A DNA stretch of 31,867 nt, taken from positions 1 through 31,867 of the IMG/VR virus record IMGVR_UViG_3300037842_000047; one strand, written 5' to 3'. The position numbers and the translations under genes were made by a program. This document shows, piece by piece, positions 22,200 to 28,852 of this stretch. Origin of the DNA: a virus. Within the stretch, counting starts at the first letter, position 1. Each line of letters begins with the position of its first letter. The notes under the pieces are model-generated. The model did no database searches. It was given only the letters and a program-made list of their open reading frames with translations, and had not been told where the DNA came from.

Positions 22200-23429
22200 T
22201 TAAGAAGTTACGTCAGCATCAGTCAACGCTTCAGGACGAGTACCGTCAGACCAAACAACAACAGACTCAGGGCGAAGAGGCCCGTGACCCATGCTGTACT
22301 TGGAGACGAAGAGATTACCTTGACGGTTAATCAAATACTCCGATTCCATTGTCATGTCCTGCAGCTTCAGCGTACCGAAACCACCCTTCTGGAATACAAT
22401 GCCTGCAACGTGCGTGTAATCCATTGAGTAGTCGTTACCCGTACCAGAATCCCAGCGATTCTTCAGGAACGCTGCACCAGTTTGATCATCTCCCGGCAAG
22501 TGCATGGAGGTGAGCAGCGTGATACCTGCGATCTGACTTACAGTACCAGTAGCAATCGAACCCTGACCACCAATGTCTCTGTTAATCACAGAGCCAGTAA
22601 TGATGTTGTCAGAATTGATCAGCGTGTAGTACTGCTCAGGGGTAACGATGGCATAGCGATCACTCGAAGGAACATCCTTCTCATCCAGCAACCGAGCCGA
22701 TTCAAACAAGGCATTCCGCAACGCAGTAGCGTCAGGAGTATACCGTAGTTTGTTGATGGCATCCGAAGCAGAAGCAGAGTTCGCCTTCATGACGTTATCA
22801 ACTTCACCCGCCACAGCATTACTGTAAACCACAGAACCTTTCTGGGTCATCCCCGGTATCCACTCATCTGCAGGGAGGAGGATCAACTTATCAGTTGCGT
22901 TTCCTGCGACTGCAGCGGCTTCCACGGTGGTTGCGTGATTCTTAGCACCTGTCTTAAGGGCGACTTTGAGTACGTTCTTATCGAACTGATTAGCCAAAGC
23001 CTCACCTAGCTGATGAGCGTAAGGAGCGCGAACGTCAAAATGAGACACCAACTCATCTATCGATGCAATGAATGTCGAAGACATTAACATCTTATCGATG
23101 TGAATCAGGGTTTCAGTTTGCTTGAACTTGTTCAGACCACCGCCGTCATTTGTACCTGTGCCGGGAAGTAAGTCGGAGTCAAGAATGTCCTGACCGGGAC
23201 TGTAGTATCCTGCTGTCGCAGTACCAATGATGGGGAACTGTGCTGATTTACCTTTGCTGATCGTGCGGATCGTATGCAAAGGTTTCATGATATTCTTCTC
23301 ATCGAAGACCGTCATTACCTCTCCCGCGAATTTCTTCAAGAAGAGAGCCGTTGAGTCGCCTGCGTGCTTATCAGCACCAACGCGACCTGCTACACCTGAA
23401 CCAAATAGATTACCTGCATAGGTAGCCAT
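22200..23429 (-). CDS. Major capsid protein (T7 gp10-like, HK97 fold)
   Basis: 409 residues from ATG 23429, with GAAAGG nine bases upstream. T7 gp10A is 345 residues. Landmarks include MATYAGNLFGSGVAGRVGAD at the N-terminus, FAGEVMTVFDEKNIMKPLHT then a TISKGKSAQFPIIG segment (the strongly conserved F-G-E-V-x-x-A-F...R-I-x-x-G-K-S-A-x-F-P pattern of T7-group capsids), ETLIHIDKMLMSSTFIASID, and EKDVPSSDRYAIVTPEQYYT in the C-terminal half. It follows the scaffold gene as expected, except for four small genes in between. It has its own leader with a good ribosome site and a possible promoter, consistent with the high expression a capsid protein needs. I see no evidence for a T7-style frameshifted longer form. 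Confidence 0.95.
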   Translation of the reverse strand: MATYAGNLFGSGVAGRVGADKHAGDSTALFLKKFAGEVMTVFDEKNIMKPLHTIRTISKGKSAQFPIIGTATAGYYSPGQDILDSDLLPGTGTNDGGGLNKFKQTETLIHIDKMLMSSTFIASIDELVSHFDVRAPYAHQLGEALANQFDKNVLKVALKTGAKNHATTVEAAAVAGNATDKLILLPADEWIPGMTQKGSVVYSNAVAGEVDNVMKANSASASDAINKLRYTPDATALRNALFESARLLDEKDVPSSDRYAIVTPEQYYTLINSDNIITGSVINRDIGGQGSIATGTVSQIAGITLLTSMHLPGDDQTGAAFLKNRWDSGTGNDYSMDYTHVAGIVFQKGGFGTLKLQDMTMESEYLINRQGNLFVSKYSMGHGPLRPESVVVWSDGTRPEALTDADVTS

Positions 23430-23469: not shown

Positions 23470-23491
23470 GATCATAGCACTCACTATGATC
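23470..23491. repeat. Perfect 8-bp inverted repeat upstream of the capsid gene
   Basis: GATCATAG, six bases, then CTATGATC. It could be an operator, an RNA hairpin or RNase III site. The T-poor, AT-rich stem is not a convincing terminator. The plus-strand loop with its right arm reads CACTCACTAT, matching 9 of 10 bases of the T7 promoter core but pointing away from the genes. Confidence 0.8.
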
Positions 23492-23538
23492 TAACTCACA
23501 ACCCCTCTGGTTGCTTTCAAGTTGTCTGACGTATCAGG

Positions 23539-23805
23539 CTATTCAGCGTCCCCTTCGGGCAAATCTAGTGGCCCTGCTAACCATCCTTCAGGCAGAGTGA
23601 CTCTGTTTTTAGAGAGTTCCCACTCTTTGCCCGTCCAATAGTAGACTCGGCCTTTGACATCTGGCCCTATACGAACCAGCGTGTCACTCGTCGGAATGAA
23701 GACTACTCTTTTTCCACTTGTCAAGCATCCGTTTGTTCCAAGCATCACGCAACTTGCGAGGCACAGCAGGAACAACCGTGGCTTTAACAGGTTCAGTAGC
23801 TTCAT
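23539..23805 (-). CDS. Small lipoprotein, candidate outer-membrane spanin (o-spanin-like)
   Basis: 88 residues from ATG 23805. The N-terminus MKLLNLLKPRLFLLCLASC has a basic start, a hydrophobic core and a good lipobox LASC (Cys19); a second, weaker site ends at Cys27. After processing about 60-70 residues remain, with the segment RIGPDVKGRVYYWTGKEWEL and an acidic C-terminus (LDLPEGDAE). The gene begins 23 bases after the holin-like stop, as in lysis cassettes where an outer-membrane lipoprotein completes envelope disruption. Most of the 60-residue frame overlaps it. The lipoprotein assignment is firm; the spanin role is inferred from neighbours. It might instead be an exclusion or unrelated lipoprotein. 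Confidence 0.75.
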   Translation of the reverse strand: MKLLNLLKPRLFLLCLASCVMLGTNGCLTSGKRVVFIPTSDTLVRIGPDVKGRVYYWTGKEWELSKNRVTLPEGWLAGPLDLPEGDAE

Positions 23806-23866
23806 TCCATAGTAATCTCAGTATCTCTTTAAGAATCGTTATTAGTGCTGCTACCATTGGCTGCAT
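23684..23866 (-). CDS. Overlapping 60-residue protein, possible lysis-cassette partner
   Basis: A 60-residue frame from ATG 23866 (or Met4 at 23857). It overlaps the holin-like gene by 38 bases and the lipoprotein gene by 122 bases, so only 23 bases are its own. The product has a hydrophobic amphipathic N-terminus (MVAALITILKEILRLLW), a Pro/Val linker and a basic C-terminal helix (RKLRDAWNKRMLDKWKK), a plausible membrane-associated small protein. Embedded or overlapping genes are usual for spanin pairs, but the N-terminal hydrophobic stretch is short for a full transmembrane anchor and there is no clear Shine-Dalgarno site. It may be a spurious frame. Confidence 0.4.
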   Translation of the reverse strand: MQPMVAALITILKEILRLLWNEATEPVKATVVPAVPRKLRDAWNKRMLDKWKKSSLHSDE

Positions 23867-24092
23867 CCAGTTTCTTGATGGTCAAACGAGAACCTGTATA
23901 CCCAAGAGCAACCAGCGCAGTCATCACTAGGCCTACCACCTTAGTCATTGCGCTGTCATCCTCTAAAATACCTGATGAAGCTATGGCTCCTATGACTACA
24001 GCAGCCATACTCATATAAAACTCTGTAGATTTGTACCCCGGCTTCTTCTGCGAGGGGGACACTACAGGGACGGTTTGTTTTGTTTTTGGCAT
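23829..24092 (-). CDS. Holin-like protein with two transmembrane segments
   Basis: 87 residues from ATG 24092. A basic, polar N-terminus (KTKQTVPVVSPSQKKPGYK) is followed by hydrophobic segments at about 24-43 (EFYMSMAAVVIGAIASSGIL) and 50-67 (TKVVGLVMTALVALGYTG), a short acidic loop EDDSA, and a polar C-terminus with RLTIKKLDAANG. This gives a hairpin with both ends cytoplasmic, the layout of class II holins; the KSTEF...GYTxSR pattern also recurs in phage holin-like proteins. It lies immediately before the overlapping frame and lipoprotein. A lysis role is inferred. T7 keeps its holin gene (17.5) far away, after the tail fibre, so the position is unusual. No endolysin is visible in this window. 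Confidence 0.65.
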   Translation of the reverse strand: MPKTKQTVPVVSPSQKKPGYKSTEFYMSMAAVVIGAIASSGILEDDSAMTKVVGLVMTALVALGYTGSRLTIKKLDAANGSSTNNDS

Positions 24093-24118
24093 ATCAACAT
24101 TGATGTATGATTGGTAAA

Positions 24119-24436
24119 TTACTTTTCCTTACGGTTGTTTGTGTTCACTTCCCCTAGCTTTAGCTCCACTTTCTTGCCCTGTACTCCAATAGTAATGGAG
24201 GGAAGAGGGATGTCTAGGGCCAAATAGGGTATCTTAAAGCTCACTCCTTTGGAGGAGACGTTAGCATCAGGGAGAACCCCGGCTGCTTTCCCTAAGCACA
24301 GGGAGGGGATGCCCCACTTGATGGTCTGCCCGAATAACGTGACGCTTGGGATAGGCTTCAAGCTTGCCCCAAAGGTCTCTGCTCTTGCAGTCGTTGCGAG
24401 CAACGCTACACCGATAGTTAATAGTATCTTCTTCAT
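24119..24436 (-). CDS. Predicted secreted protein of unknown function
   Basis: 105 residues from ATG 24436 in a TAATG junction with the scaffold gene. The start MKKILLTIGVALLATTARAE is a textbook Sec signal peptide with an A-R-A cleavage site, predicting a mature periplasmic protein of about 86 residues. The mature part is beta-rich with alternating Pro and hydrophobic residues (KWGIPSLCLGKAAG; YLALDIPLPSITIGV) and ends in a charged tail (GEVNTNNRKEK). It has only one cysteine in the mature part. I do not recognise the family. Its place between scaffold and holin-like genes suggests late expression and an envelope task such as lysis or superinfection control, but this is speculative. Confidence 0.75.
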   Translation of the reverse strand: MKKILLTIGVALLATTARAETFGASLKPIPSVTLFGQTIKWGIPSLCLGKAAGVLPDANVSSKGVSFKIPYLALDIPLPSITIGVQGKKVELKLGEVNTNNRKEK

Positions 24437-25164
24437 TACATTATGTCTGACATTTCCAGACGTTTCTCCACCATTGCGTGGAAAGCTTTATCTCCATTCT
24501 TATACAAAGGGTTTCTCATATCCTGTGTCATTTCATAAGTCGAACCGTACCCTGTAACTGGCGCAGCTTTACCTCCTTGGACTAAGGCAGGAGTGGGAGC
24601 AGTCTGAGCCTGTGAACTATACAGGGCGTAGAGTCCCTGAATTGCCAGCTTAGCTAGACCTACGTCTCTCCCTCCGACAGCGTTGTTAAAGGATTCCATC
24701 TCGTCTTCGCCTATGTTTTCACCAGCCCAGTCAGTCATCCGAGTGTAATTCTCCTCGCCTCCTGCCAGACCAAACAAAGAGTCTGCCTGCTTTTGGCTTA
24801 GGTGTTCTCGGCCTTCTATGAAAGAGTCTACAAGCTCCTTTGAGATGCCTTTCTTAGCGAGTTCCTTGTAGGACTCATCACCAATAGACCCATTATTTTT
24901 GAGGTATTCTTCCTCATATTTTTCTAGGTCTGAGGGTGTAACGAGTCCCTGTTCCTCGGCCTGCCTAGAAGAAAGTTTTTTCTCAAGTTGCCCATAAGCT
25001 TTGGCAAGCTCTTCAGGATGGGTAAACTTATCGGGAAGCCAGTCTGGTTTCTCGCTTTCTTCTTGTTGTTGTACCTCTTGCGGCTCTTCAGCTTCCGCTT
25101 GTTGAGCCTCAAGTTGGGGGTCATCTGCTGGAGTCTCTTGATCTCCGATTACTACTCTTTCCAT
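24436..25164 (-). CDS. Capsid scaffolding protein (T7 gp9-like)
   Basis: 242 residues from ATG 25164, eleven bases after the portal stop. The first 50 residues are extremely acidic and Gln/Glu-rich (QLEAQQAEAEEPQEVQQQEE), followed by the hallmark PDWLPDKFTHPEELAKAYGQ, shared by many T7-group scaffold proteins (xPExF-x-x-x-E-x-L-A-x-A-Y-x-x-L-E). The middle is helical; the C-terminus (YEMTQDMRNPLYKNGDKAFH) fits the family's MxxxMxDPxYxxDxAFRxxV pattern, the capsid-interacting end. T7 gp9 is 307 residues. Position between portal and capsid agrees. It would guide procapsid assembly and leave the mature head. Confidence 0.9.
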   Translation of the reverse strand: MERVVIGDQETPADDPQLEAQQAEAEEPQEVQQQEESEKPDWLPDKFTHPEELAKAYGQLEKKLSSRQAEEQGLVTPSDLEKYEEEYLKNNGSIGDESYKELAKKGISKELVDSFIEGREHLSQKQADSLFGLAGGEENYTRMTDWAGENIGEDEMESFNNAVGGRDVGLAKLAIQGLYALYSSQAQTAPTPALVQGGKAAPVTGYGSTYEMTQDMRNPLYKNGDKAFHAMVEKRLEMSDIM

Positions 25165-27762: not shown

Positions 27763-28520
27763 GGGTTCCAATGCTTTATCTCTCCGCTTCTCATGTTATA
27801 ATTTTCAGTTCTTAGTATCCTCGCAAGCCTAGCCTGAACTAAGGCGTCTTCCTCAGATAAATTTTTTCGACCAAAACTATTGACCACTTTCTCCCAGCTT
27901 GTGGGAGCAGTATCAGCATCTAATATACTACGGGCTGTCTTAGGCCCAACGCCGGGACACCCTGCGTAGCCATCAGTAGCATCTCCGCACAGGGCTTGGA
28001 AGAGGTGGAAGTCATCGGCATACTCTTTGGTAATCTCTCGGACTCCTCGATCCACCTTGCCCGGATTCCACAGGTTACAGGGGATGGTCTGCATATCCTT
28101 ATCGGTACTGACTATAATCTTTTTTGAACCTACCTCATACATAGGGTCAGTTGCCCAGATTCCTAACAAGTCATCGGCCTCTAGGTTATCCACCACAGTC
28201 GCTCGCCACTTTACCATGAGGTGTTCACGTAATGCACCTAGGCCTATAGGTTTCCTTGACTTCTTACGTGATGCCTTATAGCTGGGGTCGATGTCTCTTC
28301 TAAAGCATTCCTTATGGGAAAGGGCAACGCGAACCTTCTGAGCATCCAGAGCAAGGACACAAGCTTTGATCGCTGAGTCCATTACTTTGCAGGCTATAGC
28401 CACATCAGTATGCAGCGTCCACATATCGTCTCCCCAATCGATTGGAGTCTCAGAACCAGCGGCGTGTTTGTAGGCGTATATATCGCCGTCAAGTAGAAGG
28501 GTGGTCGGTTTTTTGCTCAT
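27759..28520 (-). CDS. 5'-3' exonuclease / flap endonuclease (T7 gp6 role)
   Basis: 253 residues from ATG 28520, in an ATGA overlap with the metallopeptidase gene. Metal-binding acidic residues of the FEN superfamily are visible: LLLDGDIYAY (Asp11, Asp13), DNLEADDLLG (Glu114, Asp116, Asp117), VSTDKDMQ (Asp140, Asp142) and CGDATDGY (Asp180, Asp183), followed by the helix-three-turn-helix GCPGVGPKTARSIL (about 187-200) that grips DNA. Basic RRDIDPSYKASRKKSRKP (74-91) matches the helical-arch entry region (xYKxxR). T7 gp6 is 300 residues; it removes RNA primers and degrades host DNA. The gene sits in the replication block next to the dNMP kinase. Confidence 0.93.
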   Translation of the reverse strand: MSKKPTTLLLDGDIYAYKHAAGSETPIDWGDDMWTLHTDVAIACKVMDSAIKACVLALDAQKVRVALSHKECFRRDIDPSYKASRKKSRKPIGLGALREHLMVKWRATVVDNLEADDLLGIWATDPMYEVGSKKIIVSTDKDMQTIPCNLWNPGKVDRGVREITKEYADDFHLFQALCGDATDGYAGCPGVGPKTARSILDADTAPTSWEKVVNSFGRKNLSEEDALVQARLARILRTENYNMRSGEIKHWNP

Positions 28521-28852
28521 GTAATAAATTGTTTATGAAGCCATTCAAAGACTTTGGGGTTGTGCTTCCACACAGTACACAAACCCGTGGACAGGCGTGT
28601 GGTACTCTCCTCTTCGTTGGTAGAATCATCAATGCCCATCACATGGTTCACCGCATGGATTAACTCATGTAAGAAGGTATCTGCTGTAGTCCCTTTAGGG
28701 TAACCCTTCACCATCTGGATGATACATTTATTAAGATCAACGCTTCCATGCACATCACCTGTGGAGACCCATTCTACCTTAAACTCTTGGTTAAGGACGG
28801 TAATCTTAGTGGGCCTCCTTAAGTAAGTGCCATGCGTCTTTATATTTTTCAT
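28517..28852 (-). CDS. Small zinc metallopeptidase-like protein (HExxH)
   Basis: 111 residues from ATG 28852 (start uncertain). FLHELIHAVNHVMG carries a clear HExxH zinc site (His62, Glu63, His66), followed by an acidic helix with NEEESTTRLSTGL that could provide the third ligand. The preceding strand-rich part (ITVLNQEFKVEWVS... VDLNKCIIQMVKG) fits small phage peptidases of the SprT/ImmA/WSS1-like broad class. Substrate is unknown; cleavage of host, repressor-like or DNA-bound proteins is possible. It overlaps the nuclease gene by 47 bases if ATG 28852 is used. That ATG has no good ribosome site, whereas AAGGAGG occurs downstream, nine bases before an in-frame ATT at 28804. Confidence 0.8.
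   Translation of the reverse strand: MKNIKTHGTYLRRPTKITVLNQEFKVEWVSTGDVHGSVDLNKCIIQMVKGYPKGTTADTFLHELIHAVNHVMGIDDSTNEEESTTRLSTGLCTVWKHNPKVFEWLHKQFIT

Follow-up and report, generated by a model that had tools for sequence, protein, structure and literature searches.

What are four small genes doing between the scaffold and major capsid genes of a T7-like phage? The question is raised by a 31.9-kb stretch of DNA from a marine virus (the window, by which we mean the whole stretch that was analysed, an IMG/VR record of 31,867 bases), in which a first-pass annotation had described a lysis-like gene cluster at this place, contrasted the place with T7, where the scaffold and capsid genes adjoin, and suggested that lysis timing may be linked to head-gene expression. 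The genes of this phage run along the minus strand and include those for the portal, scaffold, capsid, tail tube, internal proteins and tail fibres; polymerase, exonuclease and dNMP-kinase genes were identified by eye, and the window stops just beyond the tail-fibre genes, short of the terminase. A T7-type scaffold gene (24436-25164, minus strand; PF05396, E 1.3e-15; phrog_1052) lies upstream of the interval and a T7-type major capsid gene (22200-23429, minus strand; PF21703, E 1.9e-50) lies downstream, and all four of the small open reading frames (ORFs) described earlier were confirmed between them on the minus strand, namely SEC (24119-24436), HOL (23829-24092), SM (23684-23866) and LIPO (23539-23805). 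SM shares 38 nt with HOL and 122 nt with LIPO, the overlap with LIPO being out of frame. Elsewhere in the window (28517-28852, minus strand), a small HExxH protein gene overlaps its neighbours and is kept in many relatives; its product matches a SprT-like family at E 0.0019, under the cut-off, and phrog_1233 at E 2.4e-14.

We consider it likely, if unproven, that the four genes form a late lysis-type cassette of a T7-like phage. HOL would be a holin that makes holes in the membrane, and SM and LIPO, made from overlapping frames, would most likely act jointly on the outer envelope in place of a spanin, with LIPO in the outer membrane and SM as its small amphipathic, cationic partner. SEC would be an exported accessory of the same set. 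The cassette sits in an interval ahead of the capsid gene that commonly takes up cargo, and it ends at a conserved RNA hairpin of the capsid leader. A lysis function is favoured because of the anatomy of HOL, a capsid-side lysozyme gene in three relatives, the placement of the genes in one contig with a different layout (G035) and the occurrence of SEC beside holin-like genes; that curated holins of the GTA_holin_3TM family share the interval in other T7-like phages also counts for it.

The cassette is widely conserved. A search of IMG/VR with the capsid protein yielded 44 loci, among which there are 31 distinct complete scaffold-to-capsid intervals. In these capsid-found relatives, examined by the gene-order comparison that the first-pass annotation had proposed, HOL, SM and LIPO (the triad) are each present in all 31, and SEC is present in 13 and absent from 18. 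Alignments of HOL and of LIPO, used as queries with the best 80 kept out of 170 and out of 283, respectively, reach far more distant phages, with gene order unchanged. When the intervals found with these two queries (80 kept from each) were pooled with those from the capsid query into a query-biased set of 78 distinct intervals, SM and LIPO were present in all 78 and overlapped in every one, HOL was present in 73 and SEC in 14. HOL was undetected in the remaining five pooled intervals (L165, L166, L167, L177 and L188), four of which (L165, L167, L177 and L188) have a different protein of 64-66 aa in its place, with two hydrophobic segments in both of the copies measured (n=2). The four genes are real, conserved and linked, and the notion of a cassette confined to this phage was rejected, as the same arrangement occurs in near and distant relatives.

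Named phages, searched by tblastn, gave no match for the window HOL or SEC, only five weak 30-aa matches for the window LIPO (E 0.3-0.9) and nothing when a distant copy of LIPO, of HOL or of SEC served as query. Bacterial genomes gave no HOL match; the single LIPO match there was partial and came from a 4.5-kb contig in the bin of a Neomarinimicrobiota MAG, which is useless for host assignment. No description of the arrangement was found in the titles and abstract beginnings listed by literature searches. The cassette brings out four marine-phage protein families for which Pfam and PHROGs gave no firm match; that none of the four proteins belongs to a named curated family counts against a lysis role.

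Within the cassette, the firmest assignment is that of HOL (87 aa), which is most likely a holin and was compared with the class II type (two transmembrane segments and short cytoplasmic ends). It has one clear and one weaker hydrophobic segment. Only the first passes the Kyte-Doolittle threshold (KD 1.6), so that of the two transmembrane (TM) segments ascribed to it earlier one is borne out by hydropathy and the second is placed by eye. Basic residues lie on both sides, and by the positive-inside rule, applied by eye, both ends would be cytoplasmic. Weak matches to a holin PHROG were obtained for 6 of 18 HOL members (best E 0.005); the window HOL has no Pfam holin match, placing it outside the curated holin families, and PDB sequence profiles gave a best E of 3.2. 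A protein resembling HOL (hhalign P 0.0002, probability 47%) is also encoded at a further locus, L316, next to one that combines a lipobox with a C-terminal hydrophobic segment.

The most frequent weak match of HOL is phrog_4980, a superinfection-exclusion family, which matches 14 of the 18 members (best E 0.015) and thus more of them than the holin PHROG does; this weakens the lysis interpretation. Small phage lipoproteins such as T5 Llp work by superinfection exclusion or receptor masking, and HOL, SM, LIPO and SEC might likewise remodel the envelope against other phages or against the sticking of progeny to debris. Besides the PHROG matches, the presence of a lipoprotein and an exported protein and the lack of a recognized endolysin in most relatives are in line with such a role. 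However, curated holins occupy the same slot in other T7-like phages, a lysozyme gene lies nearby in three relatives, and SEC stands beside small holin-like or multi-TM genes at non-T7 loci; we therefore regard exclusion or masking as a rather improbable function of the set, and keep to HOL as a candidate holin.

SEC (105 aa) has a Sec-type signal peptide followed by a remainder of unknown fold, and matched no PHROG at E≤10 and no Pfam family at E≤1. The best E against PDB sequence profiles was 1.5, and its structure model, with a mean pLDDT of 50, was too poor for a structure search. Relatives of SEC were found at 63 loci, of which 56 were analysed (16 T7-like and 40 other, not deduplicated). 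At the 40 non-T7 loci, a holin-like gene of what we call the KSKT type directly follows SEC in 35 and comes one gene later in 3; at the other 2, SEC is followed by a multi-TM gene of another kind. Many KSKT-type proteins have one hydrophobic segment above threshold, and others have two. SEC therefore also travels with other small membrane genes, and the earlier suggestion that this secreted protein belongs to an envelope-acting set is strengthened by its adjoining small holin-like genes in non-T7 contigs too. Homology between HOL and the KSKT family is not claimed (hhalign probability 8%, P 0.004); the window HOL matched the KSKT profile at E 1.5e-4 in a 17-sequence set.

In non-T7 contigs of up to 71 kb (L227-L267), SEC belongs to a recurrent block with a one-TM protein of 50 aa (27 loci) and a KSKT holin-like protein of 55-85 aa, accompanied in some contigs by further lipoproteins. 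The family of 51-aa one-TM proteins beside SEC gave one match, at E 0.0024, when compared with the proteins of near relatives. The most distant copies of SEC, in contigs of 54 and 201 kb (L269 and L270), have as neighbours pilin-like genes carrying a GFTLIELLVVIAIIAILAALLLPAL leader, and we take these genes to be reminiscent of PVC-group bacteria. SEC may be dispensable, because it is missing from 18 of the 31 relatives and because in one contig (L002/L224), which does not otherwise differ from the window in the genes compared, the SEC gene has 17 nt less and a broken frame, unless this break is an assembly error.

An endolysin, which the first-pass annotation had proposed to look for elsewhere in the genome, was not recognized among the window proteins scanned with Pfam, and the lysis set comes without a recognized endolysin gene. 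Among 30 contigs of relatives searched, a PF00959 phage lysozyme gene lies between the capsid and tail-tube genes in three (L013, L017 and L043), one of which (L013) is over the curated Pfam cut-off; PF01510 and PF01464 were each found in 0 of the 30 and PF03330 in 1. The proteins of relatives scanned with Pfam (n=76, and n=90 with 25 of 31 families listed) contained no lytic enzyme except PF03330 among the families listed, and in the longer contigs of close relatives the searches recognized none beyond the capsid-adjacent lysozymes and one RlpA-like protein. The latter (L062:5854-6387, contig G008) is a double-psi beta-barrel protein with a signal-like stretch that matches PF03330 at E 2.6e-19. 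That no endolysin is recognized in most relatives weakens the case for lysis.

The longer contigs of close relatives also encode further one-TM proteins near the terminase, and the case is weakened again because these could be the holin. The main holin would then be such a one-TM protein, at what we take to be the T7 holin position, and the cassette would be auxiliary to it, as an antiholin, a second holin or an outer-membrane helper. Proteins of 54 and 60 aa with one TM segment are encoded just before the small terminase gene in G001 and G008, although the former matches a holin PHROG at only E 0.14. G001 also encodes a 100-aa protein with a TM segment and a coiled-coil look (phrog_18771, E 7e-4), and similar proteins occur in G002, G003 and G007; XhlA-like proteins occur in distant relatives (PF10779; the one shown scores 18.6 bits, below the cut-off of 34.7), and G029 encodes a protein that matches holin phrog_4898 at E 0.0012. 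However, none of these matches is strong and the window does not reach the terminase, and we think it unlikely that the main holin lies there. HOL is retained as the probable holin of the set.

We then ask what SM and LIPO would do beside a holin. When LIPO was shuffled synonymously at 33 loci picked because SM had been seen there, the SM frame stayed open by chance with a probability of 0.11 to 1.0 per locus, giving a product of 10^-16.3 over loci that are not independent. SM (60 aa) has a hydrophobic or amphipathic N-terminal stretch and a basic C-terminus. Its length is 54-67 aa in the six copies measured, and its maximum KD19 hydrophobicity is 1.39 in the window copy and reaches 1.7-1.9 in three of the six. 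LIPO is a predicted lipoprotein of 88 aa with a small beta domain after the signal. The lipobox cysteine is invariant in 36 of 36 aligned copies and several relatives have LTGC or LSGC; the window lipobox itself, read by eye as TNGC, is off the usual pattern. An AlphaFold2 model of LIPO (mean pLDDT 67.6) found nothing in the PDB at E≤0.001 with Foldseek, and PDB sequence profiles gave a best E of 0.41.

As in Rz/Rz1-type two-component spanins, among which we count T7 gp18.5/18.7, a lipoprotein gene here overlaps another gene out of frame. In contrast to them, SM has no firm N-terminal TM segment and could not accommodate a long periplasmic coiled coil, LIPO is not rich in proline and the genome location differs. 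SM was ruled out as an i-spanin, being too short, with too weak a hydrophobic stretch and without that N-terminal TM segment and coiled coil, and LIPO was ruled out as a u-spanin, its hydrophobic segments lying only at the start and its C-terminus being polar. Despite the overlap, the two do not qualify as Rz/Rz1 spanins; because SM lacks i-spanin anatomy and LIPO lacks a C-terminal TM segment, we file them under neither spanin family. Another comparison is offered by phiKT gp28 (NC_019520), presumably a disruptin in role, a type of small, cationic and helical peptide that disrupts the outer membrane. It has 56 aa and a charge of +7, against 60 aa and +4 for SM, both being from T7-like phages. 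However, no sequence likeness between the two was seen by eye, the gp28 gene lies between the endolysin and holin genes of phiKT, and no lipoprotein gene is annotated there. Disruptins are treated in general terms in part of PMC9239132. SM/LIPO may be put forward as an overlapping-frame candidate for outer-membrane disruption without Rz.

Is the position of these genes special? As a control, a portal alignment was used to sample loci encoding a relative (the best 80 of 591), of which 57 cover the region from scaffold to capsid. In this portal sample (best 80 of 591), the interval is at least 450 nt long in 25 of the 57 loci and shorter than 260 nt in 32, counts that are not deduplicated and in which the capsid start is misplaced in at least two loci (L310 and L342). 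The triad occurs in only 2 of these 57 loci from the best 80 of 591, both of them contigs already found. Ten slot proteins were chosen by eye, and five of them (L315, L322, L335, L338 and L342) match GTA_holin_3TM (PF11351) above the curated cut-off; three of the five, the only ones scanned against PHROG, also match holin phrog_3427. Like HOL, these are small membrane proteins encoded in the same interval, here of a curated holin family; unlike HOL, to which they bear no clear relation, they have 134-152 aa and, by the family name, three TM segments. The slot protein of Limnohabitans phage YIMV22061 is 44% identical to the L342 holin by blastp. Desulfovibrio phage ProddE (MZ666938), for which no literature was found, has the order scaffold, endolysin, putative holin and capsid in its depositors' annotation, similar to the arrangement described here, although its proteins are different, include an endolysin and come without an annotated overlapping lipoprotein. 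Prochlorococcus phage P-SSP7 likewise carries cargo (hliP and psbA) in the interval, but this consists of photosynthesis genes instead of envelope lysis genes. LUZ100 has, by eye, a hydrophobic protein and a lipoprotein-like protein there, and the stretches of HTVC031P and CRP-403 that were seen encode only basic, non-membrane-looking small proteins.

Because the interval is so often occupied across T7-like phages by varied genes, it is a shared cargo site, filled often but not always with lysis-type genes. The first-pass description of a lysis-like cluster therefore stands as far as an envelope-acting, lysis-type set is concerned, as indicated by linkage, by holins in the same slot and by the neighbours of SEC; a special position is not supported, the interval being commonly filled, as in 25 of the 57 portal-sampled loci (best 80 of 591) with at least 450 nt, in the GTA_holin_3TM loci, in ProddE and in P-SSP7. 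For T7-like phages, this identifies the scaffold-capsid interval as a shared cargo and lysis site. In two further intervals (L287 and L290), a protein is encoded that has both a lipobox and a hydrophobic segment at its C-terminus and resembles a u-spanin, and two others (L307 and L324) encode similar proteins with an off-pattern lipobox; the L287 protein gave no family match and no match in named phages.

The location of the four genes among head genes also raises the possibility that they encode head-morphogenesis or virion accessory proteins, not envelope lysis proteins. However, they have signal peptides, a lipobox and hydrophobic segments, SEC occurs in contigs with other layouts, and in the 9.4-kb contig G035 the triad is found away from the head genes, downstream of the tail-fibre genes and behind a coiled-coil-plus-TM-looking gene, a place that we take to be comparable to the holin position of T7. 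A head or virion role is accordingly very improbable, and an envelope-directed lysis cassette at a cargo site remains the reading that we prefer.

Does the cassette share its control with the capsid gene? Directly 3' of the LIPO stop, in the capsid leader, lies an RNA hairpin (23521-23538, minus strand) with a 4-bp stem, a UNCG cap and then ACAAC. In a 23-locus alignment, 98.9% of the cells of its four-pair stem are paired, and three of these pairs show changes in both partners. The covariation score of the whole nine-pair structure exceeds those of all 500 shuffles and of every slid version; the five outer pairs have less support (43.5% and 87% of cells), and the four-pair stem is all that RNAalifold predicts. 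The UNCG hairpin followed by AYAAY is an undescribed RNA that forms part of the capsid leader, and its structure is well supported. No literature on it was found, and Rfam 15 gave no gathering-level match for 12 loci, with chance-level matches only in two short stretches.

A covariance model of the hairpin, built from kin of the triad loci with a shortened calibration, matched 33 of the 57 portal-sampled loci (best 80 of 591) at E≤0.01, in 31 of them immediately before the capsid ORF; in the other two (L310 and L342) the capsid start is misplaced. Only 2 of the 33 matched loci carry the triad, whose kin built the model. Across 36 matches (31 loci and five named phages), four pairs could be read in every stem, in 18 distinct sequences, a result towards which matches chosen by the model lean. 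Among named phages, the hairpin precedes the capsid gene in the Pelagibacter phages HTVC019P (E 4.1e-5) and HTVC031P (E 2.1e-4), in Bordetella phage BB8 (E 2.2e-4), CRP-403 (E 9.4e-4) and MedDCM-OCT-S45-C18 (E 6.3e-3), and weakly in P-SCSP2 (E 0.053) and RHEph01 (E 0.29), these E-values depending on the bases searched each time. It was not found in the stretches of T7, phiKMV and P-SSP7, nor at E≤10 in those of LUZ100, ProddE, phiKT and the Limnohabitans phage. Eight triad loci (L106, L133, L165, L167, L169, L181, L188 and L191) were missed, and L182 gave a chance-level match only. Two exact 20-base variants, sought in IMG/VR, were found in 116 and 18 stretches (134 occurrences, not deduplicated), with a capsid ORF starting 1-102 nt downstream in 130 and a contig end within 250 nt in the other 4.

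The hairpin precedes the capsid gene in loci without LIPO, and the view that it belongs to LIPO was therefore rejected. Some LIPO copies end in P-x-x-V-D-N or similar residues coded by hairpin bases; a coding relic was set aside, since there is covariation in the stem and the frame is not the same at all loci. The hairpin suggests a signal for capsid expression that is separate from the upstream cassette, and nothing that we saw points to the link between lysis timing and head-gene expression proposed by the first-pass annotation. Taken jointly, SM/LIPO would be a spanin-independent, overlapping-frame outer-membrane module and the hairpin a new class of cis-acting RNA for the capsid gene of many Autographiviridae, a combined proposal that we put forward tentatively; its RNA half is well supported as a structure, and its SM/LIPO half is what we infer. 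If true, the hairpin would uncouple capsid expression from the upstream cargo, be it lysis genes, other genes or none. The hairpin is the newest thing in the region, and it is present in phages of Pelagibacter, Roseobacter and Bordetella that are in culture, and weakly in one of Prochlorococcus; its role is therefore directly testable. A second inverted repeat lies further along the capsid leader (23470-23491, minus strand), with the core GTGAGTGC; it was seen by eye in many close relatives, among which its stems seem, also by eye, to covary.
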